Source of the DNA: Pedobacter sp. PLR
Lineage (GTDB): Bacteria; Bacteroidota; Bacteroidia; Sphingobacteriales; Sphingobacteriaceae
NCBI RefSeq assembly: GCF_026239675.1
Contig: NZ_JAPIVQ010000010.1
Location: 124,001 to 188,000, forward strand
Direction: 5' to 3'
Length of the DNA: 64,000 nucleotides
Program-made: the position numbers and the translations under genes
The notes under the pieces: model-generated
What the model saw: the letters and a program-made list of their open reading frames with translations, nothing else
Databases searched by the model: none
Told to the model about the DNA's origin: nothing
Part shown: piece after piece, positions 17,275 through 46,071 of the stretch
How the letters are laid out: each line of letters starts with the position of its first letter
Position numbering within the stretch: the stretch's first letter is position 1

Positions 17275-17576
17275 GTCTTAATTTACATTCGGTTGAAAAC
17301 AATTCTACATAATAATTATAAGGAAAGTCCGGCTTAGGTGGAAATTATTTGCGCAATCGTTATCGGGAACGTTATCGTGCGCCACTCATTAGGCTATTTC
17401 ATCAGAAAGGCCATTATTTGAAAAAACACAAGAAAATCAGGGATCAGGATTACATCGGCAAGACTGGTTGTGAGGTCTGGTTAATAGCTGATATTTAAGA
17501 AAATCCCGGGATTACCGGGGGATAACCGCCTGATGAAATCAGGTCGGCAGACAGGCAGGAAGGATTCAAGATATGG
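17275..17576. other. Intergenic region between uxaB and the pectate lyase gene
   Basis: This 302-bp gap holds regulatory module A in its uxaB-proximal part. Near the lyase stop it has a hairpin at about 17525-17547 (CCTGAT-GAA-ATCAGG, with flanking CCG/CGG), which could end the GH105-PL10 transcript although no T-run follows. The stretch 17383-17520 has no ORF or repeat that I can support. Confidence 0.55.
17299..17373 (-). promoter_or_regulatory. Pectin regulon module A, upstream of uxaB
   Basis: ACAATTCTACAT (17299-17310), then 39 bp, then TGCGCAATCGTT (17350-17361), then 6 bp and AACGTT (17368-17373). The same order and the same 39-bp spacing occur at 22436 and 34549. Read on the minus strand toward uxaB, the inner element contains TAGAATTG, a one-mismatch match to the Bacteroidota -7 box TAnnTTTG. 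The outer element AACGATTGCGCA is the likely activator or operator site. No consistent -33 TTG is seen between them. Confidence 0.75.
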
Positions 17577-18617
17577 CTACAGGGTTTTTAACCATTTCGG
17601 ATATTTCTTATCAATCAGATTTACAGGCCATTTACCATACCAGGCATACCCTACCCGTCTTTCCACTTCAATCTCTGCTACTGTTTTTTTAGGAATACTC
17701 TCCCTCCCCATAAAAATAGGCGTATTGGTAGACAGGTCATAAAACCGGGCCCATATCACACCCAATGCGTCCGCTTTCAGCACGCGGTCTTTACCACCGA
17801 CTTGCTTCGGATCACTAATGAATACAAAATCATAGCCGGTAATTTTTGCCTTACCGAACCATTGAATCGCAGACTTTACGGCGCTTATGATCGCGGTAGA
17901 AGGGTTTTTCTGTCGCATTAAGAATTCTACTATCGCAACAGATTCCATGGCTGTCAATGAAACCGGCTCAAAGGCCCGTGCCTGAGCAGGTTTCAGGGTA
18001 TGCTGGTCATATTGCGCACACCATACGGTTGACTTTCCATCCTGGACTACCTGCGTTTTTAAAATGCAGGATATTCCTTTATCAACGGCAACTAAAGCCC
18101 GTTTACGGTCTTCTTCGGACAGTGCCTCAAAGCCTTCTTTTCCTTCTGCCAGATCCTGCAGCACATTCAACACATTGACCATGGCATTGTCGTTGTAAGT
18201 AACTTGTCCGCGGTACAAATGGTGATCCGGGAAATATTGCGGCCAGCCACCGTTCTCATATTGTGCCTTAAAAAGATAGGCAATCCCCTTTTTTACCGCA
18301 GCCAGGTAACGTGGGTTTCTGGTGTTGGTATAGGCTGTGGCCAGATAACGCAATTCTCTTGTCGTTGCTTTGTTGTCAATTGTGGCATCGTCATGCAGGG
18401 AATCTGCCCTAATCTCTAATCGTTGGAGTGTAGAAAGTTCCCGGTTGTAATCAATAGCTACTTTGCCAACTGCTTTCGGCCATCCTCCCACACTACGTTG
18501 ATAAACCAACATTTTTTCTGCTGTACTATCCAAATTTGAAGGGCGCTCGTTGAGGTTCTGCGCAACAGCACAGGAACTCAGCATCACAGCCATAAAAGCG
18601 ATGGTTAATATTTTCAT
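17577..18617 (-). CDS. Pectate lyase, polysaccharide lyase family 10
   Basis: 346 residues with a signal peptide (AFMAVMLSSCAVAQ, cysteine possibly a lipobox). QRSVGGWPKAVG, NGGWPQYFPDHHLYRGQVTY, YNDNAMVNVL and WCAQYDQHTLKP are characteristic of the PL10 alpha/alpha toroid pectate lyases, which cleave polygalacturonan by beta-elimination with Ca2+. The start codon overlaps the GH105 stop by one base (TAATG), so the two are translationally coupled. It generates the unsaturated oligogalacturonides that GH105 enzymes then hydrolyse. Predicted location is periplasm or cell surface. Confidence 0.92.
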   Translation of the reverse strand: MKILTIAFMAVMLSSCAVAQNLNERPSNLDSTAEKMLVYQRSVGGWPKAVGKVAIDYNRELSTLQRLEIRADSLHDDATIDNKATTRELRYLATAYTNTRNPRYLAAVKKGIAYLFKAQYENGGWPQYFPDHHLYRGQVTYNDNAMVNVLNVLQDLAEGKEGFEALSEEDRKRALVAVDKGISCILKTQVVQDGKSTVWCAQYDQHTLKPAQARAFEPVSLTAMESVAIVEFLMRQKNPSTAIISAVKSAIQWFGKAKITGYDFVFISDPKQVGGKDRVLKADALGVIWARFYDLSTNTPIFMGRESIPKKTVAEIEVERRVGYAWYGKWPVNLIDKKYPKWLKTL

Positions 18618-20560
18618 TATTTGTTTGAGGGTAATTGCTTAACCAACCATTGTACCAGATCAGTTGCTGCTGTGAAATTATCGTATCCGGCAGGTAACTT
18701 CCTGCCATCTACATACTCGTTATATAGCCAGGGATCACCAATAACAAAGACCGTTCCTTTGCCGTATTTTGAAATGGCAATGACGTTATTCCCTGCTTTA
18801 TCTTTGACAACCGGAGTTGCAGTATCACTTAACAACAAACTACTAAACTCCTTCACAAACAGCTGTTTTGTATTTTCGAAGATAGAATTTCTTGCAGGTA
18901 CATCGATCCTTGCGGTTTCATATTCGTTCTTGTTGACCCTACCCTTACTGTCTTTGTTAAACTGAATGCCAAAAGGCTTTGCCAGCTGGTTAAAATGATC
19001 CAGCTCGGTGTTGCCTGTATCATTTGCCATCAGTACCAATAACCCTCCTGCTTTAACCCAGGAACTGAGGTCTTTGATGTGAGTAGCACCAATATAATTA
19101 GGTTTTGGGCTTTCTTTTTCGGTATCCGGATCCACGATGATGTATACCGCAGCATTGCTGAGGTTTTTCAAGGTTGGTCCTGCTCCAAGCTCCTTTGTTT
19201 TAAAACCATTTCTTTCAAAAACACCTGCCCACATCGAAAAACCGCCATTTGCGCGTTCTGCCCATTTGTAATGCCAGGAGAGGTCATTTCCACTTTGGTC
19301 TTTCTTAATTTCATGGTTGAAGTAATTGTCCAGCAGCACGGTTTTTCCCTTTCCGGGTTTTGGTGCTAATGCCCATTCCATTTCGTTCGCAGCCAATAAA
19401 AAGGCACCTACACCTTTAGGGTCATTGGTAATCACCGGCTCAGACATATAGTAAGCAAAACTGCCATCGCGGTATGGTTTGCCGCCTAATCCAGACACAC
19501 TAACCGTGCCTTTCAGGCTCACTGTTCCATCACCATTCTGCTCTATAAACACTTTTTCTATTCCACGATAACCTAACTCTGCAACAACAAGATAAGAGTC
19601 TGATAAATCTCCATTCCTTACCCCCTTGGCAAGGCTATAGACAAACATGGAGGAAGCAGAAGCTTCGGGATAATTTCCTTTCGCATCCGGTTGATCCAGA
19701 ATGTCGTACCATAGTCCGGTTTTAGGATCCTGGTACTTTTTGATCGCCACAGCGGTCCTGTTTAAAATCTCCAGGAGTGTCTTTCTTTTTGGATGGTCTT
19801 TAGGGAAATACTCCAGTGCATCAACGAGCGCCATTGCATACCAGCCCATGGCGCGTCCCCAGAAATTTGGCGACTGCCCTGTTACCTGGTTTGCCCATTT
19901 TTGTTCTTTTGATTCATCCCAGCCATGGTACAACAAACCCGTTTTAGGATCCTTGCTATGTTTTTCCATCAGGATGAACTGATTTGCGATATCGTCAAAA
20001 GCGGCCTGGTCATTAACCAATGCCGCATATTCTGCGTAAAAAGGTTGCCCCATGTACAAGCCATCCAGCCACATTTGATGTGGATAGATCTTTTTATGCC
20101 AGAAACCACCCTCTTTAGTTCTTGGATGTCCTTTAAGCTGCTCCCTTAATGCGGTAGCGGCTATAAAATATTTCATCTGACCGGTCACTTTGTATAAAGT
20201 AAGGAGTGAACGGCCATTTTTAATATGGTCAATATTATAGTCCTGAGGCTTGTAGCGTTGAATAAGGCCTTCTTTGGTGACAAAAAAGTCCATACTTTTC
20301 TGCATGTACTTAAAATATTCGCCTTTTCCGGTTCTTTTCCAAAGCCCGTCAATTCCTTCCAGGATCACGCCCTGATCATAAGCCCATTTAACCGGCTTAG
20401 GCTGCTCAGGATTGAGGTTTAATGAGTCTGCCCATATTTCCATCACTTTAGCCGCCATACGCTCTGAGAGCGGCTTATCTGACTGTGCATAGGCTACAGA
20501 AGAGCAGCTTGCCTGTAGAACCAGCAAAGCTACCGCAGTATTTATCCAGGTTATTTTCAT
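18617..20560 (-). CDS. GH105 unsaturated glucuronyl/rhamnogalacturonyl hydrolase with C-terminal DUF4350-like domain
   Basis: 647 residues, signal peptide at the N-terminus. Residues about 30-385 form a GH105 barrel. NIDHIKNGRSLL and PHQMWLDGLYMGQPFYAEY carry the two expected catalytic aspartates, and NFWGRAMGWYAMALVDAL is a family hallmark. Residues about 400-645 form a second domain (LLDNYFNHEI, then WVKAGGLLVLMANDT, then FVIGDPWLYNEY) resembling glutamine-amidotransferase-fold DUF4350 modules. The enzyme removes unsaturated uronic acids from lyase products, giving 5-keto-4-deoxyuronate. It is encoded directly before the PL10 lyase. The upstream 132 bp holds only a small palindrome (AATTAAGCTTAATT, 20645-20658). 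Confidence 0.9.
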   Translation of the reverse strand: MKITWINTAVALLVLQASCSSVAYAQSDKPLSERMAAKVMEIWADSLNLNPEQPKPVKWAYDQGVILEGIDGLWKRTGKGEYFKYMQKSMDFFVTKEGLIQRYKPQDYNIDHIKNGRSLLTLYKVTGQMKYFIAATALREQLKGHPRTKEGGFWHKKIYPHQMWLDGLYMGQPFYAEYAALVNDQAAFDDIANQFILMEKHSKDPKTGLLYHGWDESKEQKWANQVTGQSPNFWGRAMGWYAMALVDALEYFPKDHPKRKTLLEILNRTAVAIKKYQDPKTGLWYDILDQPDAKGNYPEASASSMFVYSLAKGVRNGDLSDSYLVVAELGYRGIEKVFIEQNGDGTVSLKGTVSVSGLGGKPYRDGSFAYYMSEPVITNDPKGVGAFLLAANEMEWALAPKPGKGKTVLLDNYFNHEIKKDQSGNDLSWHYKWAERANGGFSMWAGVFERNGFKTKELGAGPTLKNLSNAAVYIIVDPDTEKESPKPNYIGATHIKDLSSWVKAGGLLVLMANDTGNTELDHFNQLAKPFGIQFNKDSKGRVNKNEYETARIDVPARNSIFENTKQLFVKEFSSLLLSDTATPVVKDKAGNNVIAISKYGKGTVFVIGDPWLYNEYVDGRKLPAGYDNFTAATDLVQWLVKQLPSNK

Positions 20561-20692
20561 TTTGTTTCTTTAATCAGGTACAAGCTTATTTCCAAACCCC
20601 CGGGTAAAAATCACATAACAGAATTAAAACCAAATACTTAAAACAATTAAGCTTAATTTTTAATCCAACATATGCGATCCATCCGGCGCTTA

Positions 20693-22378
20693 TTATTTCT
20701 TCATTTCGAGTACCGCAGACTTAGCCCCATGCGTAAATTCCGAGATCCCTTTTGCTTTACCAGTGGCCGTACCAGAGATTTTAAGGTCTTTATTCTGGTC
20801 GCCGGAAACGCGTATCAGCAGTTCTGCATTCGTATAGTCGATATTGTCAAAAAAGATCGATTTCCCGTTTTGCACATACAGTAATGGCTTTGCTTTAGGA
20901 ATGTCCAGGTGTGCATTTGTCAAATGAATATTTTTAGCTTCCTGAATGTCTACACCTTCATCGGCTTTGATCACCAGATTATCCAGATAGATGTCAGAAA
21001 TACTCATTTCCGGCAATCCACGAACGAATACTGCTTTGGCAGCTCCATCACAAACGACATTCTGGATATAAAACTTCCTGAAAACAGGTGTCTCCTCAGT
21101 CACAGGCAGTAATTCTACTTTAGGCGCTTCGCGCTGCTCTCCCGTTAGAGGAACCGGATCAACCGCAGCATAGTACATATCAAAAAGAATGGCCTCGCCG
21201 GCAATGTCTTTCATATTGATGTTTTTAGCATAGATGTTTTCTACCACACCGCCTCTTCCTCTGGTTGTTTTAAAACGCAGACCGATGTCTGTGCCAATGA
21301 AAGTACAATCAGAGATGAAGATATTTTTAGCACCGCCTGACATTTCACTGCCGATTACAAAACCGCCATGGGCATGGTAAACGGTACTATTTCTGATGAT
21401 CACATTTTCGGTAGGCACTCCACGTTCCCTTCCTGCAGCATCACGACCGGATTTAATACAAATCCCGTCATCACCAACATCGAAAGTACTTCCTTCAATC
21501 AGCACATTTTTACAGGACTCAATGTCTATCCCGTCTCCGTTTTGTGCATACCATGGGTTTTTAACATATACATTTCTAACAGTTATATCCTCACTCATTA
21601 ATGGGTGAAGGTTCCACGCCGGAGAGTTTTGAAAGGTTACTCCTTCCAGTAAAACCTGCTTACAACGGTACAATACCATTAGATTAGGTCGTAAGAAATC
21701 CTTGATACTTTCATAGAATTCCGGCGTTTTCTCTGCACTGATTTTTCCTGGATCTTTCATTTTTGATCCTTTAAGCGTTAAAGCAGAAGGATACCAGATT
21801 TTCTTGTCTTCAGACACTAAACCGCCCGAAGCCAGTAATTTCTTCCACTGGCTTTCTGTTAATTTATCTTTTTTGACCATTCTCCAGGCATCACCAGCAC
21901 CATCAATGATTCCGAAACCGGTTATTGCAATATTTACCTCGTTATTTGCCCAGATTGGCGATTGATTGCGCATCTGCGAAAGTCCTTCCCAGTTTCCTTT
22001 CACCAGTTCATATTGCCTGAAGTCTTTGCTAAACTGTAACAGGGAGTTTTTCTGTAGGTGAAGATTCACATTACTTTTCAACTCCACAGGACCTGTCAGC
22101 CATAATCCCGCAGGAATAACGACTACACCGCCACCTTTTTTGCTCATCGCCTGAATGGCCGAATTGATGCTTTTAGTGTTTAGTGTGATGCCGTCATTTT
22201 TGGCTCCATAGCTAAGAATATTGATGGTGTCTTTTTTAAACTGCGTTCCTTTTACTTTCGGTAGGTTATCAAAGGAATATTGCTGCGCTTTGGTTGATCC
22301 CTGTCCTTTTGAAACCATAGGGTTCCATAACAAAAGGGAAAAAGACAAAGTCCATAGCATAGGGGTAATTTTGCTCAT
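20693..22378 (-). CDS. Polygalacturonase-type glycoside hydrolase, GH28
   Basis: 561 residues with signal peptide (cleavage near SKGQ). ITGFGIIDGAGDAW marks the start of the right-handed beta-helix. NGDGIDIESC (about residue 280), VGDDGICIKSGRD (about 297) and HGGFVIGSEMSGG (about 335) supply the three catalytic aspartates and the histidine of GH28. The length and the insertion at residues 170-230 are like bacterial exo-acting polygalacturonases or rhamnogalacturonan-active members. It hydrolyses pectic backbone in the periplasm or at the surface. It is a separate transcription unit headed by module B. Confidence 0.92.
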   Translation of the reverse strand: MSKITPMLWTLSFSLLLWNPMVSKGQGSTKAQQYSFDNLPKVKGTQFKKDTINILSYGAKNDGITLNTKSINSAIQAMSKKGGGVVVIPAGLWLTGPVELKSNVNLHLQKNSLLQFSKDFRQYELVKGNWEGLSQMRNQSPIWANNEVNIAITGFGIIDGAGDAWRMVKKDKLTESQWKKLLASGGLVSEDKKIWYPSALTLKGSKMKDPGKISAEKTPEFYESIKDFLRPNLMVLYRCKQVLLEGVTFQNSPAWNLHPLMSEDITVRNVYVKNPWYAQNGDGIDIESCKNVLIEGSTFDVGDDGICIKSGRDAAGRERGVPTENVIIRNSTVYHAHGGFVIGSEMSGGAKNIFISDCTFIGTDIGLRFKTTRGRGGVVENIYAKNINMKDIAGEAILFDMYYAAVDPVPLTGEQREAPKVELLPVTEETPVFRKFYIQNVVCDGAAKAVFVRGLPEMSISDIYLDNLVIKADEGVDIQEAKNIHLTNAHLDIPKAKPLLYVQNGKSIFFDNIDYTNAELLIRVSGDQNKDLKISGTATGKAKGISEFTHGAKSAVLEMKK

Positions 22379-22435
22379 ACAAGGCTGGTTTAGGTATCTT
22401 AAATATATTTGGTTACCGCTGTTTCCAGCTGGTAC

Positions 22436-22502
22436 ACAATTCTACATAGTTTTGTGAGAGAATAAAACAAAAGCGCTCAAAATAACTGCGCAATCGTTCC
22501 CG
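22436..22502 (-). promoter_or_regulatory. Pectin regulon module B, upstream of the GH28 gene
   Basis: ACAATTCTACAT (22436-22447), 39 bp, then TGCGCAATCGTT (22487-22498) followed by CCCG. The spacing is identical to modules A and C, and the orientation toward the minus-strand gene is the same. The AACGTT seen in A and C is absent here. The outer element ends 2 bp after the GH43 stop codon, so the whole module fits in the gap between GH43 and GH28. A TTG lies 23 bp before the TAGAATTG box. Confidence 0.75.
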
Positions 22503-22504
22503 TA

Positions 22505-24274
22505 TTACTGAGCTGCTTCCACACGGAACCAATCAACATCGGCATAACCGGAATCATTGCTTTTTCCTTTTTTAACGGCAAACAGCCCCATTTTAGCACC
22601 GATCCATTGTCCTTCTTCCGCGGGAAAAGACCCTGGAATGGAGGTGTAATCCGATCCATCAAGGCTATAGCTAAAAGTACAAAGTGCACCCTTTCCTACT
22701 TTAACACGCAAATACACTTCCCCTGCTTGCTCTTTCCAGTCTGTAATCGTGATTTCCTGTTCCTTTTTTCCTTTAGCAGCACCTATACATGTGGTATAAA
22801 CTAAGGATACCTGTCCGTTTTTACTTTTTAAAGCAAGATTAGCATAGCTTCTGCCCATGACAATTAATCCTGCTTTTTCCTCTTCCAACTTCAGATTAGG
22901 ACTGAATTTCATTTTAACAGTAGCCATAAACTCTTCCGCAGGGAATTTTTGCAGGAGCAGATTTGGCACTTCCCAGTAACTGTTCATCTCTTCGGGAGCT
23001 TGTTGCGTAAAAAGTCTTAGGCTTCCTTTTGCAGGGTTCATAATAGCCCAGGTGGCTTCCGGATTGGCCTGCCATTGCCATTGAAGGCCCATACTGTTTT
23101 CATTAAATTCGTCACTTTCTGCGGGTGTGAGGATTTGAAAAACCTTAGCCATAGCCGGCTTTTTGTATTCAGATACGGGAGTACCTACTCCTGTTCCCGC
23201 TGGATCCAATCCGATGACCGGCCAATCTTTGACCCATTTCATAGGTTGTAAATGTACCACCCGGCCATAAGGGCCTTTATCCTGAAAATGCAGGAACCAA
23301 TCTTCTCCCCCGGGTGTATCAACCCAGGCACCCTGATGTGGACCGTTTACCAGGGATTTCCCCTGATCCATCACTACCTTTCTTTCATAAGGACCATAGA
23401 TGTTTTTAGAACGTAGTACGAGTTGCCATCCGGTAGCTACGCCGCCTGCCGGAGCAAACAGGTAATAGTATCCGTTACGTTTATAAAATTTGGGCCCCTC
23501 GATGGTCGGATCTTCCTCATGACCATCATAAACCAGTTGCCCCTGATCTATCGCCTGATCTCCGGCCTCATTCAGCCTTTTAACCGCCAGGACACTTTTA
23601 ATTCCCGCCCTGCTGCCTGCATAGGCATAAGCCAGATAAACTTTACCATCCTCATCCCAAAACGGACAAGGGTCAATCAGTCCTTTTCCTTCGGCCACCA
23701 TAACTGGTGCAGACCATTTGCCGGCCGGATCCTTTGCTTTAATCAGGTAGATTCCGAAATCCGGATCCGGGTAATAGATATAAAACTCTCCTTTATGAAA
23801 ACGAATGGCAGGTGCCCATACGCCATTACCGTGCTGAGTCTTAGAGAAATGAGCTTCAGGAATTTGTCGGGTTAAGGCATGGCCGATAATTGACCAGTTC
23901 ACCAGATCTTTGGAGTGTAGGATCGGGATTCCGGGAACACCATCAAAACTAGAGGCAATCATATAAAAATCATCACCCACTCTGATCGCGTCAGGATCTG
24001 AATAATCGGCATTCAATACCGGATTTTTATACTTTCCATTACCAAGATCGGCCACCCAGACTTTACTGATGGCGGACTTATTAAGCATTGAATTTCCGTT
24101 TAAATCCTTCCGGAGTTGTGCATTTGCATATCCTCCACAGAAGAACAAACTACCCAGCCATAGACTTCCTATCCATAAACGGGTAATCCCTGTCTGCTTA
24201 ACCATTGTGGTTTCTTTAGCTACTGCTGATTGTTTAACTACTGCTGATCGTTTAACTATTGTTCCGGCTTCCAT
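22505..24274 (-). CDS. GH43 arabinofuranosidase/xylosidase with C-terminal beta-sandwich
   Basis: 589 residues if the ATG at 24274 is used. Another ATG at 24208 gives a cleaner signal peptide (MVKQTGITRLW to GGYANAQ). The GH43 five-bladed propeller starts at YKNPVLNADYSDPDAIRVGD, where the Asp after YS is the base. EEDPTIEGPKFYKRNGYYYL carries the acid glutamate. Residues about 385-585 are a concanavalin-like C-terminal domain (beta-xylosidase C-terminal type). It probably trims arabinose or xylose side chains from pectin. It is the last gene of the susC operon and overlaps the upstream pectinesterase gene by 19 bp under the long start. Confidence 0.88.
   Translation of the reverse strand: MEAGTIVKRSAVVKQSAVAKETTMVKQTGITRLWIGSLWLGSLFFCGGYANAQLRKDLNGNSMLNKSAISKVWVADLGNGKYKNPVLNADYSDPDAIRVGDDFYMIASSFDGVPGIPILHSKDLVNWSIIGHALTRQIPEAHFSKTQHGNGVWAPAIRFHKGEFYIYYPDPDFGIYLIKAKDPAGKWSAPVMVAEGKGLIDPCPFWDEDGKVYLAYAYAGSRAGIKSVLAVKRLNEAGDQAIDQGQLVYDGHEEDPTIEGPKFYKRNGYYYLFAPAGGVATGWQLVLRSKNIYGPYERKVVMDQGKSLVNGPHQGAWVDTPGGEDWFLHFQDKGPYGRVVHLQPMKWVKDWPVIGLDPAGTGVGTPVSEYKKPAMAKVFQILTPAESDEFNENSMGLQWQWQANPEATWAIMNPAKGSLRLFTQQAPEEMNSYWEVPNLLLQKFPAEEFMATVKMKFSPNLKLEEEKAGLIVMGRSYANLALKSKNGQVSLVYTTCIGAAKGKKEQEITITDWKEQAGEVYLRVKVGKGALCTFSYSLDGSDYTSIPGSFPAEEGQWIGAKMGLFAVKKGKSNDSGYADVDWFRVEAAQ
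24208..24274 (-). repeat. Short tandem repeats at the GH43 gene 5' end
   Basis: Read on the minus strand, two near-identical 18-bp units (TAAACGATCAGCAGTAGT and TAAACAATCAGCAGTAGC) follow each other, with a more degenerate third copy. They encode repeated VKxSAV-like hexapeptides before the second ATG. The region overlaps the end of the upstream pectinesterase gene. Confidence 0.6.
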
Positions 24275-25254
24275 AAACTTTTTCCTGAAAATATCTTGAT
24301 TAATGTATAGGCTTTAACTTCTTTCTTAGACAATTGCTTTGACCATGGGATTCTTGCTGTAGTTGCTCCACCTGGTCCTTTAGAACCGTATTCCGCATAA
24401 AAACTGGTCTTATGATTGTCGTTCGCATTCCAGGCAGACCAGCCCGCAGGCAAGATATGCGAACCCATTTCTGTGTTTATAAATACGGTATTGGCATAGG
24501 GCCGCCAGGGCCTGCCGAGATAAACTTTTGTGATGCCGGGGGATGCAGTCAGCTCACAATCCAGGAACACAAAACCATAAGGTTGTGCCGGAGTCGTTGA
24601 AGCTGCTGTGAGGTAAGAATTCCTTTTGCTGTGGATATGGCAACGTTCAAAGACTACTGTCGCCGCCCCAAAGATGAAATCGGTGGTTCCTTCTATATAG
24701 CAATCCACATAATACTGTCTGCTGGTATCTACAGCAGGAAACAGCGTATCCTGATTCCCGGTTATCCGGCAATTCTTAACCAGCATACGATCTCCTTCTG
24801 CATGAAGCGCGACTGCTTGTCCAACCGGACCAGCAGTATTTTCAATGGTCAGGTTCTCTGCCCTGAAATCATTCCCCTGCACCAGTAACGTATAGGAATT
24901 GAAAGTATTGATTCCTGCTTTGCCTGAATAATCCCCGTTAGAGATCACAGTCTGCTCTTTATCTTCTCCGAGAAGAAACACTTTTGTTTTCCAGGAGGGT
25001 ACGACTAGTTTCTCTTTGTACACTCCCTTTTTGATGTGGATGGTGACTACGGGAACTGAGAAATCGCGGACGGCATTAATTGCAGCCTGAATAGATTGAA
25101 AGTCCCCGCTTCCATCTTTACTTACCGTAAAAGAGGCCGGAAAGGTTTGACTAACCTGAGCCGGGGTGTTTTGGCCAGCAGTGTTTTGAGCTATTGTCCG
25201 AAAACACGCTCCCAACAACATCAGGAACAATATTAACTTTTTGCTGGTATCCAT
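24256..25254 (-). CDS. Pectin methylesterase, CE8 (first copy)
   Basis: 332 residues with a signal peptide. FTVSKDGSGDFQSIQAAINA opens the beta-helix. GPVGQAVALHAEGDR (Gln), CRITGNQDTLF (Gln and Asp), TDFIFGAATVVFE (Asp) and VYLGRPWRPYANTVF (Arg, Trp) are the five conserved pectinesterase motifs with all catalytic residues. It demethylates homogalacturonan so that PL10 and GH28 can act. It overlaps the upstream CE8 copy by 22 bp. A non-conserved linker of about 20 residues rich in Q, T and A follows the signal peptide. Confidence 0.94.
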   Translation of the reverse strand: MDTSKKLILFLMLLGACFRTIAQNTAGQNTPAQVSQTFPASFTVSKDGSGDFQSIQAAINAVRDFSVPVVTIHIKKGVYKEKLVVPSWKTKVFLLGEDKEQTVISNGDYSGKAGINTFNSYTLLVQGNDFRAENLTIENTAGPVGQAVALHAEGDRMLVKNCRITGNQDTLFPAVDTSRQYYVDCYIEGTTDFIFGAATVVFERCHIHSKRNSYLTAASTTPAQPYGFVFLDCELTASPGITKVYLGRPWRPYANTVFINTEMGSHILPAGWSAWNANDNHKTSFYAEYGSKGPGGATTARIPWSKQLSKKEVKAYTLIKIFSGKSLWKPEQ

Positions 25255-26189: not shown

Positions 26190-26971
26190 TTCTTTGTTGC
26201 TTTAGGTTGTACGATATAATTACACAAATCCAATTGCTGCTTTTTCATTTCTGAAAGCACAAGCTGGGCGATTTTCCTGGCTCCAAACTCATTAAAATGA
26301 GTATTGTCTTTTTTACCTTCCGGATAATTCGGATGAACACCAGGTTCCAGCTGCATAAACAGTTTTTTAGCGGCCAATGGACCCATTTTTTCATACATCG
26401 CCCTGCTGTCTCTATCAAGATCAATCAGGGGGACATCATACGCTTTCGCTACTTCATATACCGCAGCGGTATATTCCGTATGCGTTTCTTTTGCATGATC
26501 GCTTTTATCGAAACTCAATCTGGATACCGGAGTAATGAGCACAGGAATGGCATTTTTCGCCCTACTTTCTTTGATAAACCTGGCAAGGTTAGTCTTGTAA
26601 TCTGCTACAGAAGTGTAGCGCTCTTTATATTTCTCTCCTTTAGCGGCATCATTGTGACCAAACTGAATCAGCACATAATCACCTTTACTTAAGCTATCCG
26701 ATACATTTGACCATCGTTTTTCTGCGATGAACGTTCTGGTACTCCTTCCTCCTTTTGCGCGGTTATTCAGTTCCACATCAGCGGTAAAAAAACCGGCAAA
26801 GGGCATTCCCCATCCTGTTAAGGGCGCTCTGGAACTTTCATAATCACACATTGTGGAATCACCAATCATCCAGACCTTTATTGGCGTTTGCCCGTTTATA
26901 AAAGCAGTACATAAACAGACTAAGCCAACTGCAACTATCTTTAACTTTCTAAATTGAGTGATTTGCATCAT
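26186..26971 (-). CDS. Rhamnogalacturonan acetylesterase, CE12 (first copy)
   Basis: 261 residues, SGNH hydrolase. VWMIGDSTMCDYES has the nucleophile serine (block I). LNNRAKGGRSTRTFI has the block II glycine. YVLIQFGHNDAAKG is block III (GHND). KKDNTHFNEFGA has the Asp-x-x-His pair. It removes acetyl groups from rhamnogalacturonan or galacturonan in the periplasm. A signal peptide (VGLVCLCTAFINGQ) is present. It lies 3 bp after the other CE12 gene and overlaps the CE8 gene downstream. Confidence 0.92.
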   Translation of the reverse strand: MMQITQFRKLKIVAVGLVCLCTAFINGQTPIKVWMIGDSTMCDYESSRAPLTGWGMPFAGFFTADVELNNRAKGGRSTRTFIAEKRWSNVSDSLSKGDYVLIQFGHNDAAKGEKYKERYTSVADYKTNLARFIKESRAKNAIPVLITPVSRLSFDKSDHAKETHTEYTAAVYEVAKAYDVPLIDLDRDSRAMYEKMGPLAAKKLFMQLEPGVHPNYPEGKKDNTHFNEFGARKIAQLVLSEMKKQQLDLCNYIVQPKATKK

Positions 26972-26974
26972 TTC

Positions 26975-27727
26975 TTAATTAATCTTGTTTTTAACCAGAA
27001 ACCTTAATACCGGTAAATTTAATGTGCTCATTTCCTGTAAAACCAGTTGTGCCATTTCTCTTGCACCGAGTTCATTAAAATGCGTATCATCTTTTTTCCC
27101 TTCCGGATAATTTGGATGTTCTCCTGGTTCTAAATGGTTGAACAACAATTTAGATTGCTCCGGACCATATTGCTGCAATAAGACCTGACTTTTCAAATCG
27201 AGGTCAATCAAAGGAACCCCGGAAGATTTGGCTAATTCCCTAACCAGCGCTGCGTATACCCCATGGGTTTCCTTAACTTTTCCGGAATCATCAAAACTTC
27301 TTCTGGCTACTGGCGTGATCAACACCGGGAAAGCACCTTTTGCCCGGGTTTCCTGAACAAATTTCAACAGGTTCTTTACGAAATCTGCTTCCGGTGTATA
27401 GCTGGCTTTGGTTTTCACTTCATCATTATGACCAAACTGAATCAACACATAATCGCCTTTTTGAAGTCCTGAGGCCACTGGCGCCCATAAATTCTCTGAG
27501 ATAAAGGTTTTGGTACTCCTCCCATTCTTCGCGCGGTTATCGACTAAAACAGCTTCGCTAAAAAAATTAGCAAAAGGCATTCCCCATCCAGTTTCAGGGA
27601 AAGCGCCTGCTGATTTAACAGCAAGCGTAGAATCCCCGATCAGGTATATTTTCATTTTTTGCGGAGGTGTTGAAACAAAAGACATCAATACCAGGGCCAT
27701 TAAAGCAAACCAGCTATATTTTCTCAT
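26975..27727 (-). CDS. Rhamnogalacturonan acetylesterase, CE12 (second copy)
   Basis: 250 residues with a signal peptide (ALMALVLMSFVSTPP). IYLIGDSTLAVKSAGAFPE, DNRAKNGRSTKTFIS, YVLIQFGHNDEVK and KDDTHFNELGAREMAQLVL show intact SGNH blocks I, II, III and V. It is paralogous to the neighbouring CE12 gene. It follows the surface protein gene by 9 bp in the susC operon. Confidence 0.92.
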   Translation of the reverse strand: MRKYSWFALMALVLMSFVSTPPQKMKIYLIGDSTLAVKSAGAFPETGWGMPFANFFSEAVLVDNRAKNGRSTKTFISENLWAPVASGLQKGDYVLIQFGHNDEVKTKASYTPEADFVKNLLKFVQETRAKGAFPVLITPVARRSFDDSGKVKETHGVYAALVRELAKSSGVPLIDLDLKSQVLLQQYGPEQSKLLFNHLEPGEHPNYPEGKKDDTHFNELGAREMAQLVLQEMSTLNLPVLRFLVKNKIN

Positions 27728-27736
27728 TCCTGTGAT

Positions 27737-29344
27737 TTAAAGTGCCCATCGCGGGTCGCCAACTTGTCCACCGCTGCTATTGCTTTTCAACAATACAGAT
27801 CCGGCAGGCAAAGTGAATTGAGTGGTATTCGCATTCCAGCCCGGATCTACCGTTTGTCCCAGTTTAGCTCCGGCAGGTAAAGGCAAGTCAGTTCCATTGG
27901 TATTGCTTGTTTTCAGGTTAAAAGTATTGTTGTATTCAAAAGTTGTAACAGAAGCGCCTGAAGTAATCGAGGTTAGTCCTGCCACCGTACCAGAACGCGG
28001 TGCATTGGCAATAATAGAGTTTTTCATGCTAAAGGTAACCGGGTTTGCAGCCGCAATGATCAATGTATACATCCCGGCAAAGCCGATATTATTGATGGAA
28101 CACTCACTGATGCTTACCTCTGGCGCGGCACCAGCCATCGTGGTTTTACAATTTACCAAACCTGGCGAACTGTTATAGATGGTACTCTTCGTAATTTTCA
28201 ATGATTTAAAGGCAAGTTTATCCAGGTGGAACAGGTAATAACTGGTACCAGAAATATCATAGATCTTACATCTGTTGATCTCCAGTTCATTCATGACGAA
28301 CAAAGTATTCCGATCCGCACGTACAATAGCCGTGCTGATCCCATGAATCCAGGAGTTTTCAAACCTGACATTTTTAAATGTAGAAGCAACGCCTGTACCG
28401 GAGCTAATCAAATCGCAGAAATACAAGGAACTGTAGGCTGTTCCATCAAAGTTAATTCCTGAAAACGAAAGACCAGCTCCCGTACCAGTCAGGGTAAAGC
28501 CTTTTCCGTTTACTTTTACCTTCTCCGGATTATCATTCACTGATCTTAAAGTGATCATTTTACCGGCAAGATTTACTAAGGCCGGCAATTCATAGGTACC
28601 ATCTTCCAGACCAATCACCGCATTATCCGCAGCCGTAGCAATGATGCCCGCCAGGTTATCAGCCGGTGTAATCTTTACCGTATAGACAACCGGTGCTGAT
28701 GTTGTAAAAGTCAGGTAGCCATTGCTACTTGTTCCTGAAAACAACTCCGCAGTATATTTGGTGCTGGCCATAAGACCCGGAATAGTCACCGATTTTTTGG
28801 CCAGATCGGCTGTACCTAAAGTTACTGTAATTGCAGTTCCGGTTTCCGGAGTCAGGACAATTTTAGAACCCGCCGGAACTTCCAAAAAGCCAAGGTCTAC
28901 ACTATTGTCCCTAACCGTTATTTTGTCGGCCCTAAACAATTGTTTACCCACAATCTTAAATCCTGAACTCAACATATATTTAGATTCCGGCTGTGTAGCG
29001 GTTGCATTTGCTTTGATACGGGCAAAATATTTGAGCCTTAATTTAAGCTCTCCCTCCTTAACCGTAAAACCAGCAGAATCGGTTTTACCGGAAAACTCCG
29101 TAGTAGAGAACAAGGAATCTGTAGAAAAATCTACGGTATAACTATATGGATTGTCACCGGTAAACAAAGGAGCTTTCCAGCTTAACCATGCGGAGCTTTC
29201 TGAGGCTACCACTTTAATTTCTGAGGGCTTAAAAATTCTTGGGGCCGCTGTTGGTGTTTCGTCCTTTTTGCAGGAGGAGACAAACAAGGCTGAACTTGCA
29301 AATAGAAAACAATGGCAAGCGATCGTTAAAAGATTTCTTTTCAT
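27737..29344 (-). CDS. Surface lipoprotein with Fn3 and beta-helix (DUF4957/DUF5123-like)
   Basis: 535 residues. The N-terminus ends in FVSSCKKDE, a lipobox with Cys25. The acidic/lysine residues after it fit surface-exposed Bacteroidota lipoproteins. Residues about 40-125 resemble a fibronectin type III domain (SSAWLSWKAP and YFARIKA). Residues about 220-530 form repeated short strands (LRSVNDNPEKVKVNG, FSGINFDG, NRCKIYDISG), like a parallel beta-helix of the DUF4957/DUF5123 type. No catalytic residues are evident. Its place directly after susD suggests a glycan-binding surface protein for pectin, as SusE/SusF are for starch. Confidence 0.75.
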   Translation of the reverse strand: MKRNLLTIACHCFLFASSALFVSSCKKDETPTAAPRIFKPSEIKVVASESSAWLSWKAPLFTGDNPYSYTVDFSTDSLFSTTEFSGKTDSAGFTVKEGELKLRLKYFARIKANATATQPESKYMLSSGFKIVGKQLFRADKITVRDNSVDLGFLEVPAGSKIVLTPETGTAITVTLGTADLAKKSVTIPGLMASTKYTAELFSGTSSNGYLTFTTSAPVVYTVKITPADNLAGIIATAADNAVIGLEDGTYELPALVNLAGKMITLRSVNDNPEKVKVNGKGFTLTGTGAGLSFSGINFDGTAYSSLYFCDLISSGTGVASTFKNVRFENSWIHGISTAIVRADRNTLFVMNELEINRCKIYDISGTSYYLFHLDKLAFKSLKITKSTIYNSSPGLVNCKTTMAGAAPEVSISECSINNIGFAGMYTLIIAAANPVTFSMKNSIIANAPRSGTVAGLTSITSGASVTTFEYNNTFNLKTSNTNGTDLPLPAGAKLGQTVDPGWNANTTQFTLPAGSVLLKSNSSGGQVGDPRWAL

Positions 29345-29356
29345 GACTGTATAGAC

Positions 29357-31210
29357 TTAATAACCATTATTTTGAACCATATTGGTAGTTTCGATGAGCA
29401 CCGTTTTAGGGTAAGGTAACAGCTCGCGTTCATTTGCTTTGAAGTACGTTGCGAAACCATTTGCAGTACCAGAGATAGATCCGGAAACCTTATCATCATT
29501 CACTGCCATGCGCCATGCTTTAACAGTATATCCACCCGCAGGTGCTGCCGGAGTTCCAAGACCTGCACTATAAAATACCGTATTTGGCGTACCGCCATAA
29601 AAGTCCAGGTTGGCCACTTCCGCTACGCTGCCGCCTTTCAGGTAATTGTTCTCTTTTACATAAATATAAAGCGGCACATTGGCATACGCGCCAACACCGT
29701 TCATAAAATCCTTCAACTTATTACGTGTTTCATTAAACTTCGTCTCCATCAGGTTCCAGCGGATCAGGTCATATTTACGAATCCCTTCCCCACCAAATTC
29801 CAGTAAGCGTTCTTTTACAATCGCCTCAAAGAATCCAGCTTTATCTTGTGGAGTTACAGGGATAACCGTTTCGAAACCCAGGTAAGCACGCTTACGCACT
29901 CTTTCTAAAGCCAGTTTAGCATCAGCAGAAGGCCCGCCATTAACCTCATTATCAGCCTCTGCAAACATCAGCAGTACATCTGAAAAGCGCAATATAGGCC
30001 AGTTGATGGCGAAATTCTGAGAAGTGGAAGTGTTGTTAAAGGCTGTCCATGCTTTTCTGAATTTCCCATCGGTCATGGTAGTCGCTACATTCAGGATTTT
30101 CTTAGAATTGTCATTGATCTCGTATACACCGATGGTCACATCTCTCCGGCTATCTTTAGCAGGATCAAACTCATAAAAGTAGGTAGGAATTGCGTTCATA
30201 CCACCACCACCTTGTCCAAAGGTAGATTTAGCAGAGTATCTTAAGCCATTATAATAACCCAGTTTACTATCTGTAGAAGCATTACCTCCAAATGCACCAA
30301 CCTCGAACATTAACTCATGAGCATCATCCAGACGCGCACCATGCAAAGTCTTAAACACATTTTCATAACTTGGATTTAAATCATGTTCTGCTGCCTCAGC
30401 AATCACCTCAGCGCATTCTTTTGCTGCGATCTTATAATAAGTTAAATAATCTGCTCTTCTTTCCATTCGACGGGTATCAATACGTAAAGCGTATCCACCT
30501 CTGGCTAAAGCAATCCTTGCCCTTAGCCCCTTTATTGCTCCTTTGGTAAAACGGAAGCTCCCGTAATCGGCGATCTTTGATCTCCATGGCACCAGCGTTT
30601 GTGCCAGTTCCAGGTCTTTCAAGAGCTGATCATAAGTTTCATCGCGGTTGCTATTGAAAAAGTTCAGGGTAGGCGCATCAGAAGCCGGAACAAAAGTTCC
30701 CGGAACATCTCCCCAGTTGCGGATCAGTTCCTGGTAAAACTGAGCTCTTAAGGCCAGTGCTTCCCCATAATACCTGCCCATTTCTTCTTTCTGAGCAGCA
30801 GTACCACTGGTATATAATTTTGACAACGGGATATATTTAATACAAATGTTGGCACGTTCTACACCTGCAAACAATTGCGCAAAAGGTTTGGTCAATTCTG
30901 TATTGTCGGAGCTTGCCCCATACATACTTACCCCTCTACGATCTGAAGAGCTGTAACTGCCTGATGTTTTAAAATCATCGGCACTCAGGTTCAGGATTGT
31001 TGCCAACCGGTTTCCATATCCGTCGTCACCAACCAATCTATTGTACACCCCAATCAGGGCAGAGTTGGTATACACCGTACTTTCGAAGACCGTTGAAGGC
31101 GAGGAAACAGAAGGAGATTCAAATTCCAACGCTTTTTTACAGGAAGGAAGTATGCTTAAAGTGCCAATCGTAAAAGCCATAATGGCAGCTGATAATATTT
31201 TCGTTTTCAT
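29357..31210 (-). CDS. susD: SusD/RagB-family glycan-binding lipoprotein (pectin PUL)
   Basis: 617 residues. The lipobox is LPSCKKA (Cys24). The body shows SusD landmarks: RANICIKYIP, EALALRAQFYQELIRNWGDVP, ALERVRKRAYLGFE and FGGEGIRKYDLIRWN. SusD proteins cap the SusC channel outside and capture oligosaccharides. It starts 20 bp after susC. With the CE8, CE12 and GH43 genes behind it, the ligand is most probably a pectic oligosaccharide. Confidence 0.92.
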   Translation of the reverse strand: MKTKILSAAIMAFTIGTLSILPSCKKALEFESPSVSSPSTVFESTVYTNSALIGVYNRLVGDDGYGNRLATILNLSADDFKTSGSYSSSDRRGVSMYGASSDNTELTKPFAQLFAGVERANICIKYIPLSKLYTSGTAAQKEEMGRYYGEALALRAQFYQELIRNWGDVPGTFVPASDAPTLNFFNSNRDETYDQLLKDLELAQTLVPWRSKIADYGSFRFTKGAIKGLRARIALARGGYALRIDTRRMERRADYLTYYKIAAKECAEVIAEAAEHDLNPSYENVFKTLHGARLDDAHELMFEVGAFGGNASTDSKLGYYNGLRYSAKSTFGQGGGGMNAIPTYFYEFDPAKDSRRDVTIGVYEINDNSKKILNVATTMTDGKFRKAWTAFNNTSTSQNFAINWPILRFSDVLLMFAEADNEVNGGPSADAKLALERVRKRAYLGFETVIPVTPQDKAGFFEAIVKERLLEFGGEGIRKYDLIRWNLMETKFNETRNKLKDFMNGVGAYANVPLYIYVKENNYLKGGSVAEVANLDFYGGTPNTVFYSAGLGTPAAPAGGYTVKAWRMAVNDDKVSGSISGTANGFATYFKANERELLPYPKTVLIETTNMVQNNGY

Positions 31211-31230
31211 TTCTTTCGTAGCTGAATGGA

Positions 31231-34200
31231 TTAAAAGACAAGATTAATACCTGCAAGGATATATCGGCTACGCGGATAAGCGGCGTAATCAATCCCTGGT
31301 GTTAGCGGGTTACTTCTGCGGGTATTGGCTTCCGGATCATATCCTGAATAACCAGTAATCGTCAATAGATTATTTACCGTACCATACACCCTAAGTCTGG
31401 AAATAAATCCTGTGCGTTTCATTAGTTGCTCAGGAAGTGTATAACCCAGGGTCACATTCGTGATGCGCAGGAAAGAACCGTTTTCAATCGCAAAAGAAGT
31501 TAAGGCATAGTTTCCAGGCGTAGGTGTCCAGAAAGTGGTGTTCTCATTTAACGCGGCTAATGCTACCGGATCAGTTACTTTGACTCCATTTGCATCAAAA
31601 TTCTTCCAGCGTTGCGTCATGATCTCCAACAAATTGTTGTCTTTCACATTATACTGAGAAGTAAACTCTAAACGATTCGCATTGTAGACCTTGTTTCCTA
31701 CGGAAAAGTTAAGGAATACAGTCATGTCAAAATTCTTATACGTAAACTGGTTGTTGAATCCACCGGTAAACTTTGGTTGGGCATTGCCCAATACGGTACG
31801 GTCGTCTTCAGTAATCACCATACTTTCCGAAGAAGAAAGCTTTTTCAGTTTCATATCTCCGGGTTGTGGCTCTCTGTTTCCGATTAAAGATTTGCTGTTG
31901 GGCACATCGGATTTTAAAGTATAAGTATATACACCGGTATTGGTGTTTTGTACATAGTCGAAATCATTTACAGTGTATCTGCCATCAGAAATATACCCAT
32001 AGAATTGCCCGACAGGCTTCCCTACTTCTACCTTCACATCTGCAAGGCTATTTACCCATCCCGACTGCGTCAGATAAGAATTCACCCCACTTTGCAATTC
32101 CAGAATTTTGTTCCTGTTGAAGGAAATGTTGAAACTGGTGTTATAGCTGAAATCTCTGCTTTTCACCGCAAGGAAGCCCAATTGTAGCTCAATCCCTTTG
32201 TTTTGTGTTTTACCTATATTTTGTTGTTGAGAAATATAACCCGAGATCGGTGAAATGTTAGCATCCAGCAATAAATCTTTTGTTTTATTCTCATACAGGT
32301 CGATGCTTGCGGTTAAACGGTTACTGAAAAGCTCCATATCAACCCCAATGTTGGTAGAAAGATTGGTTTCCCATTTAATGTTAGGGTTAGCCAGTTTCGT
32401 CGAAATCAAGCCGGTGCTTACCGCAGCATCATTAGCTGCATAGCCACCTGCGGTAGAATTCGCCAGGAATATCGTTCTGAACAAATCCTGACCGATTCTG
32501 CTATTTCCGGCAGCACCATAACTCAACCTGAATTTCAAGCTGTTTATCCATTTAATATTCGCTTGCTTAAAAAATTCTTCCTCAGAAGCACGCCATGCAA
32601 CTTGTCCGGATGGAAAATTACCATAACGATTGCCAGCTGCAAATACAGAAATACCATCTCTTCTAAAATTGAAAGTAGCCAGGTATTTCCCTTTGTAAGC
32701 ATAGGCAGCACGGGCGAATACAGAAAGGTTTCTTGTTCCGCTTACCAAAGAAGTTGGCTTATCCTGAACAGCGCCATTCGGCAAATCTGTTTTCTGAATG
32801 TTAGAGAAAGCCTCATCCGGAGTAATATTTGCAGGGAACCATTTAATCAGCATGTTGTCTGCATTCACATCATCATTGCGCAACTCTTGTCCCGCAAGGA
32901 GATCCAGACTATGGTCTGAGCCTAAATCCGGTTTGTAATTTAAGGTATTGGTATTGATGAAAGTCGTGCTATAAGAGTTCTCCAGCTGAATAGCAGGTCT
33001 GTTTGCATTATTTCTTGAGATATTCGTCAGCAAGCCATTGAAGGTATCCACATGACGGTCGTTATAATTCAAACCGATGGTGCTTTTCAAGGTCAGGTTT
33101 TTTAAAATCTGATAGCTTAGGTAAGCGCTGGTGATCAGATCATTGCGGTAATCATATTTCAATTCATTATGCGCTAAACTAATCGGATTGGTCAGGTTGG
33201 TTGCCTGAAAATCTGCATCAAACAAATCTCCTGAATCTCCACCACCCAGATAAGGCTGATAACGTACTGCATTCCTTAAACGGTTGGCACTTTGCGATTG
33301 CGTATTGCTGGTCCCTACTCCGTCTACACGCTGGCGACTATACCTCGCATTCAATCCGAACCTTAACTTATCAGAGATCTTATGGTCAAAACGAAAAGAA
33401 GCAAATGTTCTTTTATAAGCAGATTCCAACATAATCCCGTCTTCTTTGGTATTGTTAAGCGAGAAGTTGAAAGTTGTTTTATCAGTTCCTCCGGAAATAT
33501 TCAGAATCTGGGTAGCTGACCAGGCCTGGCGACCGAAGACTTTATCCTGCCAATCTACTTTTGGAATATGCTTATAAATCTCTAAATCTTCAAAGGTTCC
33601 GTAAGCTTTGGTGAAATCGTCCTTTACCTGTAGAGAAGTGTTGTTATTGTACAATTCATATTGATAAGTTACAAAATCGAAAGGGTCCATCACTTCTAAC
33701 TTGTTGACGATCTGACGAGCACCCCCGAATACATCAAATGAAATGATTGTTTTACCCGATTTTCCGGCTTTAGTGGTAATGATCATTACCCCATTTGATC
33801 CTCTGGAACCATAAATCGCAGTCGAGGCCACGTCTTTTAACAAGTTGATCGACTCAATCTCACCGGGAGATAAAATGGAAAGCGCATTGTCTACCGGAAT
33901 CCCGTCTACAATATATAAAGGAGAATTGTCGCCGGTAAGCGAACTTCCACCACGCACTTTAACCTGGATATCAGCACCTGGATTACCTTCTGGCGTAGTC
34001 ACCGATAAGCCGGCCATTTTACCCGATAACGCCTGTGCCAATGTTCCGACCGGAAAATCAGCCACATCCTTACCAGACAATACTGATACAGAACCCGTCA
34101 GCATTTCCTTCCTTACCGAGCCATAACCAATATTGATCATCACCTCATTCAGTTGGGATACATCTTCCTGTAAAATAAAATTGATTTTAGATTGTTTGCC

Positions 34201-34461
34201 TACCGGGATTTCCTGGGGCACATAGCCGATATATCTGGCGATTAAAACAGTTTCTCCCTGATCAGGAACAGAAATCCTAAACTGGCCTTTCTCATCCGTA
34301 CTCACCACAATGGCGGTACCTTTAATAGAAACGCTCACGCCAGGAATAGATTCCTTGCTTGCTTTGTCGGTTACCTTGCCTGTTACCTGGCGAATTTTCT
34401 GTGCGTCCGCCCGGAAAACTACAATAGCCAACAATACAAACAGTAGTAAAATTCTTTTCAT
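31231..34461 (-). CDS. susC: SusC/RagA-family TonB-dependent transporter (pectin PUL)
   Basis: 1076 residues. Signal peptide ends at FRADAQ. Residues about 22-100 form the carboxypeptidase-like N-terminal domain (VTGKVTDKASKESIPGVSVS). The plug domain carries LYIVDGIPVDN and STAIYGSRGSNGVMIITTK, which are SusC hallmarks. The remaining residues form the 22-strand barrel, ending in a terminal phenylalanine (AGINLVF). It imports oligosaccharides across the outer membrane with TonB energy. It heads the pectin enzyme operon and lies 87 bp after module C. No cysteine is visible in the chain, as usual for outer-membrane barrels. Confidence 0.94.
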   Translation of the reverse strand: MKRILLLFVLLAIVVFRADAQKIRQVTGKVTDKASKESIPGVSVSIKGTAIVVSTDEKGQFRISVPDQGETVLIARYIGYVPQEIPVGKQSKINFILQEDVSQLNEVMINIGYGSVRKEMLTGSVSVLSGKDVADFPVGTLAQALSGKMAGLSVTTPEGNPGADIQVKVRGGSSLTGDNSPLYIVDGIPVDNALSILSPGEIESINLLKDVASTAIYGSRGSNGVMIITTKAGKSGKTIISFDVFGGARQIVNKLEVMDPFDFVTYQYELYNNNTSLQVKDDFTKAYGTFEDLEIYKHIPKVDWQDKVFGRQAWSATQILNISGGTDKTTFNFSLNNTKEDGIMLESAYKRTFASFRFDHKISDKLRFGLNARYSRQRVDGVGTSNTQSQSANRLRNAVRYQPYLGGGDSGDLFDADFQATNLTNPISLAHNELKYDYRNDLITSAYLSYQILKNLTLKSTIGLNYNDRHVDTFNGLLTNISRNNANRPAIQLENSYSTTFINTNTLNYKPDLGSDHSLDLLAGQELRNDDVNADNMLIKWFPANITPDEAFSNIQKTDLPNGAVQDKPTSLVSGTRNLSVFARAAYAYKGKYLATFNFRRDGISVFAAGNRYGNFPSGQVAWRASEEEFFKQANIKWINSLKFRLSYGAAGNSRIGQDLFRTIFLANSTAGGYAANDAAVSTGLISTKLANPNIKWETNLSTNIGVDMELFSNRLTASIDLYENKTKDLLLDANISPISGYISQQQNIGKTQNKGIELQLGFLAVKSRDFSYNTSFNISFNRNKILELQSGVNSYLTQSGWVNSLADVKVEVGKPVGQFYGYISDGRYTVNDFDYVQNTNTGVYTYTLKSDVPNSKSLIGNREPQPGDMKLKKLSSSESMVITEDDRTVLGNAQPKFTGGFNNQFTYKNFDMTVFLNFSVGNKVYNANRLEFTSQYNVKDNNLLEIMTQRWKNFDANGVKVTDPVALAALNENTTFWTPTPGNYALTSFAIENGSFLRITNVTLGYTLPEQLMKRTGFISRLRVYGTVNNLLTITGYSGYDPEANTRRSNPLTPGIDYAAYPRSRYILAGINLVF

Positions 34462-34548
34462 ACTCGGTTTGGTTAATACTCCCCTTTTTTGGGATAAGGG
34501 GGTTTTGGTTTAATTTGGTTAGTATGGAAAATGCTCAGTCTTCCATTA

Positions 34549-34623
34549 ACAATTCTACATTGTTTTTTTAATAAAGGAATCTCCGGGGCCAGATAAATTT
34601 GCGCAATCGTTCCCGACAACGTT
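34549..34623 (-). promoter_or_regulatory. Pectin regulon module C, between susC and the LacI regulator
   Basis: ACAATTCTACAT (34549-34560), 39 bp, TGCGCAATCGTT (34600-34611), 6 bp, AACGTT (34618-34623). All spacings equal those of module A. The minus-strand TAGAATTG box points at susC. The outer element is about 90 bp before the LacI-type gene, which is read the other way, so one site may control both. Confidence 0.75.
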
Positions 34624-34712
34624 GCCGACCTGAAAATCAGATACTTTTAATTAGAAGGAAAATCCTTATATTGCCCTATATAGACCGATTATTAAAACTT
34701 TCCATCTTTTTC

Positions 34713-46055: not shown

Positions 46056-46071
46056 TTTTAATTCTACGACA

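Follow-up and report, generated by a model that had tools for sequence, protein, structure and literature searches.

A bipartite DNA module that recurs upstream of pectin and galacturonate genes in Pedobacter sp. PLR appears to be the regulated promoter of a LacI-family pectin/galacturonate regulon, and the LacI-family protein encoded beside one of its copies probably acts there as an activator. The module lies in a 64,000-nt stretch of contig NZ_JAPIVQ010000010.1 (the window). Scanning the window for ACAATTCTACAT-N39-TGCGCAATCGTT, with spacers of 36-42 allowed, gave three matches (17299-17361, 22436-22498 and 34549-34611), all on the + strand and all with a spacer of 39, and 100 shuffles of the window gave none. 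Because all three target genes are on the - strand, the coding-strand order is the reverse of these matches, AACGATTGCGCA-N39-ATGTAGAATTGT-gene, upstream of uxaB, a GH28 gene and susC. The inner element ends 24 (uxaB), 57 (GH28) and 87 nt (susC) from the start codon. In the uxaB and susC copies AACGTT is found 6 bp past the outer element; the GH28 copy lacks it at that position. The three copies fall within 17.4 kb and have 24 letters in common, and their spacer sequences differ. A first-pass annotation made by a model from the letters alone had described three copies with a 39-bp spacer in one orientation, start-codon distances of about 25, 57 and 87 bp, and AACGTT beside two of the copies; all of this was borne out.

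The outer element, which on the coding strand reads CGNNAACG followed by ATTGCRYA with a CG at its centre, is predicted to be a LacI-family operator. Operators of this family are even palindromes with a CG centre (PMC4052901). All three window operators have such a centre: CGATAACGATTGCGCA at the uxaB promoter (17350-17365, - strand, the outer element being 17350-17361), CGGGAACGATTGCGCA upstream of GH28 and immediately past the GH43 stop codon (22487-22502, - strand), and CGGGAACGATTGCGCA again in the lacI-susC divergent region (34600-34615, - strand). A second putative operator, CGATAACGTTCCCG at uxaB (17364-17377, - strand, containing AACGTT) or CGGCAACGTTGTCG at susC (34614-34627, - strand), shares one CG with the first, its centre lying 12 bp upstream; CGGCAACGTTGTCG pairs at 6 of 7 arm positions and the downstream CGGGAACGATTGCG at only 4 of 7. 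A CG occupies the equivalent second centre in 25 of 43 non-redundant promoters. AACGTT is accordingly predicted, from these letters, to be the core of a second, overlapping operator and no independent element. On the promoter-facing side, operator positions 19-22 hold G or C in none of the 43 promoters, and at uxaB the resulting A/T tract directly downstream of the operator spans 17342-17349 (- strand). This tract may be a docking site for the C-terminal domain of the polymerase alpha subunit, or an extension of the operator.

The inner elements (17299-17310, 22436-22447 and 34549-34560) each contain the box TAGAATTG, on the - strand at 17300-17307 (uxaB promoter), 22437-22444 (GH28 promoter) and 34550-34557 (susC promoter). 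The Bacteroidota -7 consensus is TAnnTTTG, with a -33 element, TTTG, around -33 (PMC7366714). TAGAATTG departs from this consensus at the fifth base, and is -7-like by its place and by its kept TA...TTG. Among the 43 promoters, the fifth base is A in 20, C in 22 and T in 1. Boxes of the form TAnnXTTG in 254 other upstream regions carry T in 67 of 137 occurrences on the sense strand and in 28 of 80 on the antisense strand, so that avoidance of the consensus T has a Fisher p of about 1e-9 against the sense set and 1e-5 against the antisense set, figures that are weakened by kinship among the promoters. In other genera the box takes the forms TAATCTTG, TAACCTTG, TAAAATTG, TAATATTG and TATTTTTG and keeps its place. 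Because the letters drift and the place stays, the inner element is best read as a -7 box rather than as the site of a second regulator; we regard it as a putative -7-like box that is systematically off consensus. The first-pass description of it as near the -7 consensus thus holds for its place and general letters, but not for the consensus T. TTG occurs at -30 to -20 from the box in 15 of 43 promoters, compared with 7.2 +/- 2.4 in shuffles, and TTTG in 8 of 43, a weak -33 signal. Lacking the consensus T and having a weak -33 element, the boxes of the regulon would be poor promoters alone.

The distance between these two elements is strongly constrained. The 39-nt spacer described above equals 42 nt from the operator end to the TA of the box, and a spacer of 40 equals 43 nt. 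A sample gathered independently of the box came from 69 loci that had been retrieved through homology of their LacI proteins; its 76 operator sites were reduced to 59 non-redundant ones by spacer identity (at most 75%), with related susC promoters retained. TAnnnTTG lay at a gap of 42 in 30 of these operators, 43 in 10 and 40 in 3, with only 2 others anywhere within 15-65 nt, and two control boxes on the same operators gave 4 and 7 scattered matches. The 16 operators that had no box at 40, 42 or 43 are opposite-facing partners of operator pairs, have variant boxes, or are solitary. Mean pairwise identity among the central spacers of the 30 gap-42 sites is 33%. Family-wide, with 27 gaps allowed, we found 38 matches in 27 of 399 genomes, 30 of them at 42, 4 at 43 and 4 elsewhere; the reversed pattern had no match in the 399 genomes. 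The distance from box to start codon, taking the first possible codon of each open reading frame (ORF), ranges from 7 to 300 nt (median 54) over the 87 modules with a recognised gene. Because that distance varies widely while the operator-box gap holds, the constraint lies between operator and box, as the first-pass annotation had proposed. Its further claim, that the spacing is exactly fixed, is correct for this genome, but relatives commonly use both 42 and 43, and some use 40. Because a CG centre and the shape TAnnnTTG were preconditions of the scans for spacing, box bases and modules, the CG and the TA...TTG letters are invariant by construction.

A few matches depart from this spacing. 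Those in G194 (gap 36), one in G341 (38) and one in G130 (51) are taken as chance. In G367 (L168, G367:C129, 3875; also L035) the gap is 31, one helical turn less; this module precedes susC near a LacI of 49% identity, and may be a natural helical-phase variant. In genus g15 (L009, L010, L011 and L135) the operator pair forms a long inverted repeat, AGCGCAATCGTTATCGGTAACGATTGCGCA, and one such pair, at L135, is flanked on either side by a box at 42/43, one before GH43 and one before susC.

The leading candidate for a protein that reads the module is encoded next to it. The 337-amino-acid product of 34713-35726 (+ strand, ATG at 34713; the ORF list places a TTG further upstream, at 34599), divergent from susC, scores 47.8 bits against PF00356 (cut-off 27) and exceeds the cut-offs of PF13377 and PF00532, which places it in the LacI family. 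It is 93-96% identical in three Pedobacter. Matches at E 1e-80 occur in 269 of 399 genomes, from which the best 30 ortholog loci were used, own genome included and all of genus g1. At all 30 of these loci, and hence within one genus, the operator lies next to the lacI ortholog, which supports the initial view of the outer element as a LacI-type site. A box TA(G/A)(A/T)(A/C/T)TTG stands at 42 or 43 nt in 26 of the 30, and the looser TAnnnTTG in 28; at L062 the box belongs to a second operator of that locus. Of the 36 genomes whose LacI ortholog reaches 70% identity, 20 have the strict module at gap 42/43, vs 5 of the remaining 363, as counted by hand with five LacI candidates scored per genome. 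The source genome also encodes a UxuR-like LacI paralog, 45% identical to the 34713-35726 protein, and the recognition helices are alike (STSTVSRAL in LacI, STSTISKAL in the paralog). Beside that paralog, near 7792 of locus L114 (G000:C2:104500-124000), is a UxuA/SDR pair whose promoter has a related operator, CGCAATCGTTATCGTA, and TAACATTG at gap 42. The two paralogs likely read shared sites, judging from these helices and letters.

In the 5.8-Mb source genome, the exact module is confined to the three window copies, and the reversed control gave 0. When up to 3 mismatches were tolerated at fixed spacing, a slightly diverged fourth copy was found at G000:C1:91109-91175 (control 0), consisting of CGGGAACGATTGCACA and TTTGTAGACTTGT at equal distance on contig C1, ahead of a susC/susD pair. 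The susC of this pair is 79% identical to one in a Pedobacter cryoconitis locus (L043) and 48-49% identical to those of L129 and L172; all three loci carry pectin genes, and the matching susC in L043 and L129 bears the module. By this homology, the fourth copy would precede a second pectin-type susC. Perfect CGNNAACGATTGCRYA sites number 4 in the genome, each within a module copy. Allowing one mismatch adds 7 sites (reversed control 5), at none of which was TAnnnTTG found at gap 42/43 in the orientation of the match; one of them, at L093, when read on the opposite strand is the operator on the uxuA side, whose centre is 51 nt from TAACATTG. The 11-nt box TGTAGAMTTGT occurs 8 times, of which 4 are in the module, with a reversed control of 4, so that in this form it is no common promoter word here. 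Its four unpaired sites are near none of the 11 operator sites and were put aside as chance. The regulon in this genome thus has at least 4 operons, with uxuAB possibly a fifth: the first-pass proposal of a pectin regulon stands, and its number of three operons was too low.

The module extends beyond this genome and family. Across 395 genomes of the class, 37 matches were found among those listed, 30 of them outside the family. With 19 gaps allowed, 14 of these 30 are at gap 42/43, and 9 of the 14 belong to five genomes, four from family f36 and one from f68. The genes that follow the 9 are susC homologs (4), KduD-like (2; best family kduD, just under cut-off), pectate-lyase-like (1; a weak PelZ match and no Pfam match), GH28 (1) and an extracytoplasmic function (ECF) sigma factor gene (1). 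A LacI of 59-62% identity is encoded on the fetched stretches of three of the five genomes (G506, G765 and G633), and no LacI ortholog was found on the stretches examined of G433 and G621. The 16 out-of-family matches at other gaps were treated as chance. The module therefore recurs in two families beyond its own, three Bacteroidia families in all.

Homologs of window genes follow 87 of 100 distinct modules: 39 susC, 17 GH28, 14 uxaB, 9 GH88 and 8 others, the 39 susC weighing less as pectin evidence because susC is a large, less specific family. The other 13 include modules before KduD-like (2) and pectate-lyase-like genes (2), an ECF sigma gene before susC (2) and an abhydrolase/acetyl-xylan-esterase-like gene (1), as well as two near a locus end (one identifiable as GH28) and four that are probably chance (L147, L152, L154 and L159, from the box-based search). 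A motif widespread without pectin genes, the outcome that the first-pass annotation had named as telling against its own proposal, is thus not what we find: these 87 modules precede a pectin/uronate or susC homolog. In two relatives (L047/L122 and L172), the module stands before an ECF-type sigma gene (TIGR02985, above cut-off) followed by susC, and there the LacI regulon may feed a sigma-factor step. The lacI-susC intergenic region has no relative in the plasmid collection searched.

From the operator-like site, the -7-like box, the spacing constraint, the regulator linkage and the target genes, we infer a mechanism of binding, effector sensing, polymerase contact and activation. LacI (34713-35726) would bind CGNNAACGATTGCRYA, which a second operator often overlaps 12 bp upstream, and the UxuR-like 45% paralog would probably share the operator sites. 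LacI would sense a pectin breakdown product, either a uronate or 2-keto-3-deoxygluconate (KDG), and would most likely recruit RNA polymerase as a class-I-like activator, perhaps through contact of the alpha C-terminal domain with the A/T tract beside the operator. The TA(G/A)A(A/C)TTG boxes would be weak alone. From the operator centre to the TA of the box is 51-52 nt, so that a box occupying -11 to -4 would put this centre at about -62. Taken together, this position, spacing so tight, the A/T tract and a box off consensus fit activation better than repression, and we consider it probable that LacI is an activator of these promoters.

Several observations weigh against this proposal. Most characterised LacI proteins are repressors. 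The weak -33 signal indicates that the promoters are not wholly devoid of core elements. The background set of boxes is diluted by chance boxes, as the antisense T count suggests, and the promoters used in the significance tests share kinship, so the probabilities are overstated. The class-wide search gave 37 real matches in the listed genomes and its reversed control 11; of the 14 matches outside the family at gap 42/43, five (G454, G497, G437, G740 and G508) precede no pectin gene and are probably chance. Two genomes (G382 and G347) have two modules each, at uxaC and a GH88 gene, and no LacI above 45% identity among all candidates scored. A survey around other LacI genes, given below, also showed no peak above its controls.

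Alternatively, LacI may be an ordinary repressor released by inducer, as expected from the sugar-responsive repression of most characterised family members. Near -62 it could block the A/T tract, some other polymerase contact, or an activator, and the spacing would be kept because the blocked contact has a fixed place; the adjoining A/T tract could be that contact, and the weak -33 signal agrees with a promoter of this kind. However, the operators lie far upstream of the core promoter at one near-constant distance, whereas repressor sites usually vary, and a merely repressed promoter is not expected to avoid the -7 consensus T. We thus find repression unlikely. Less likely still, both elements are real and their main reader is another protein, the UxuR-like paralog or yet another LacI, the neighbouring one playing a secondary part. 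The modules kept in G382 and G347, the CGCAATCGTTATCGTA and TAACATTG at gap 42 beside the paralog, and the similarity of the recognition helices would suit such a reader, and because of those two genomes the neighbouring LacI is not the sole reader. On the other hand, the operator lies beside the close LacI ortholog at every one of the 30 loci and beside 59-62% orthologs in other families, and module and LacI co-occur strongly. Recent promoter duplication or chance, with no functional constraint, might have been suspected from three copies so close together and so alike, but their spacers differ and the spacing is kept over genera and families with divergent spacers, so that this explanation is already contradicted by the comparative data and has almost no probability left.

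Activation by LacI may also have a wider meaning. A lineage of Bacteroidota LacI proteins might be true activators of polysaccharide loci, replacing hybrid two-component system (HTCS) and SusR-like regulators, and the rigid 51-52 nt, the A/T tract and the off-consensus box might together define a class of activator-dependent promoters; we hold this tentatively, as somewhat short of an even chance. The UxuR-like paralog shares the operator-box geometry. At L200/L201, in two related genomes, a perfect palindrome, AATTGGGAGCGCTCCCAATT, occurs near a LacI paralog of ~37% identity, upstream of a 758-amino-acid ORF, with TACATTTG (a TAnnTTTG box) 52 nt from its centre; this unrelated operator with equal geometry hints at a general LacI mode. 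For a general survey, the surroundings of other LacI genes of the class (80 stretches, 882 upstream regions) were scanned for CG-centred palindromes (6/7) upstream of genes. Palindrome-box pairs numbered 14, with 3 at 50-53 nt, a range in which the controls gave 3/24 (AT centre), 2/12 (reverse-complemented box), 0/8 (GC centre) and 0/4 (reversed box). Since the survey did not exceed its controls, a general LacI geometry is only a lead.

The genes behind the three window copies, all on the - strand and identified from Pfam and NCBIfam profiles, head three runs. susC (31231-34461) begins a run of susC, susD, DUF4957, two GDSL esterases, two pectinesterases and GH43, down to 22505. GH28 (20693-22378) begins a run of GH28, GH88 and a pectic acid lyase, down to 17577. 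The uxaB gene for tagaturonate reductase (15742-17274) is followed, to 7844, by uxaA (altronate dehydratase), uxaC, a PfkB-type kinase (kdgK), an eda-type aldolase, an MFS transporter and an aldehyde dehydrogenase. The three runs jointly form a pectin and galacturonate pathway, and from gene adjacency each is presumably one operon. A second susC/susD pair (window 42963-47577) lacks the exact module and is probably not in the regulon. No HTCS domain was reported in the 28 window proteins scanned, a set that reaches up to 49128.

In textbooks LacI proteins are repressors, and control of polysaccharide loci in gut Bacteroides is usually ascribed to HTCS and SusR-like regulators. In Bacteroides, UxaR, UxuR and KdgR are LacI-family uronate regulators predicted by comparative genomics (PMC3878776, PMC4052901). 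The regulon described here resembles theirs as LacI-family control of galacturonate, glucuronate and KDG genes in the same phylum. Compared by description, it differs from those regulons of monosaccharide pathways in that it covers susC/D and pectin-degrading enzymes and has a near-fixed geometry. It shares with HTCS and SusR-like regulators the control of polysaccharide utilisation genes; the motifs of those regulators are direct repeats, with an average spacing of 21 bp for HTCS and 67/77 bp for SusR-like (PMC3878776), unlike the CG-centred LacI-type operator found here. Overlapping LacI sites about 13 bp apart have been described, E. coli GntR at gntKU being the tested example, and among LacI-family proteins Cra is both a repressor and an activator and GntH is termed an activator in a reference title (PMC4052901). 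In contrast to gntKU, Cra and GntH, the present module combines a 12-bp overlap with a -7-like box that is off consensus and strictly spaced from the operator. We found no report of a LacI-type activator of pectin loci in the open-licence literature, and one may exist elsewhere; the available parts of PMC3870299, PMC4495994, PMC12125979 and PMC5306329 contain no direct precedent.

A LacI-type regulon with activator-like geometry in three Bacteroidia families offers a simple, directly testable model of inducible transcription, of interest for a phylum with a non-textbook sigma factor and promoters. A sequence rule for finding pectin/uronate regulons also follows: operator, 42/43 nt, TAnn(A/C)TTG. 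A likeness in geometry exists with class I activation, as by CRP at -61.5. As there, the site here is centred ~62 bp upstream of the presumed start, upstream of the core promoter; unlike CRP, the presumed activator belongs to another protein family and would work, through a polymerase contact that we infer, with a Bacteroidota polymerase and promoter.

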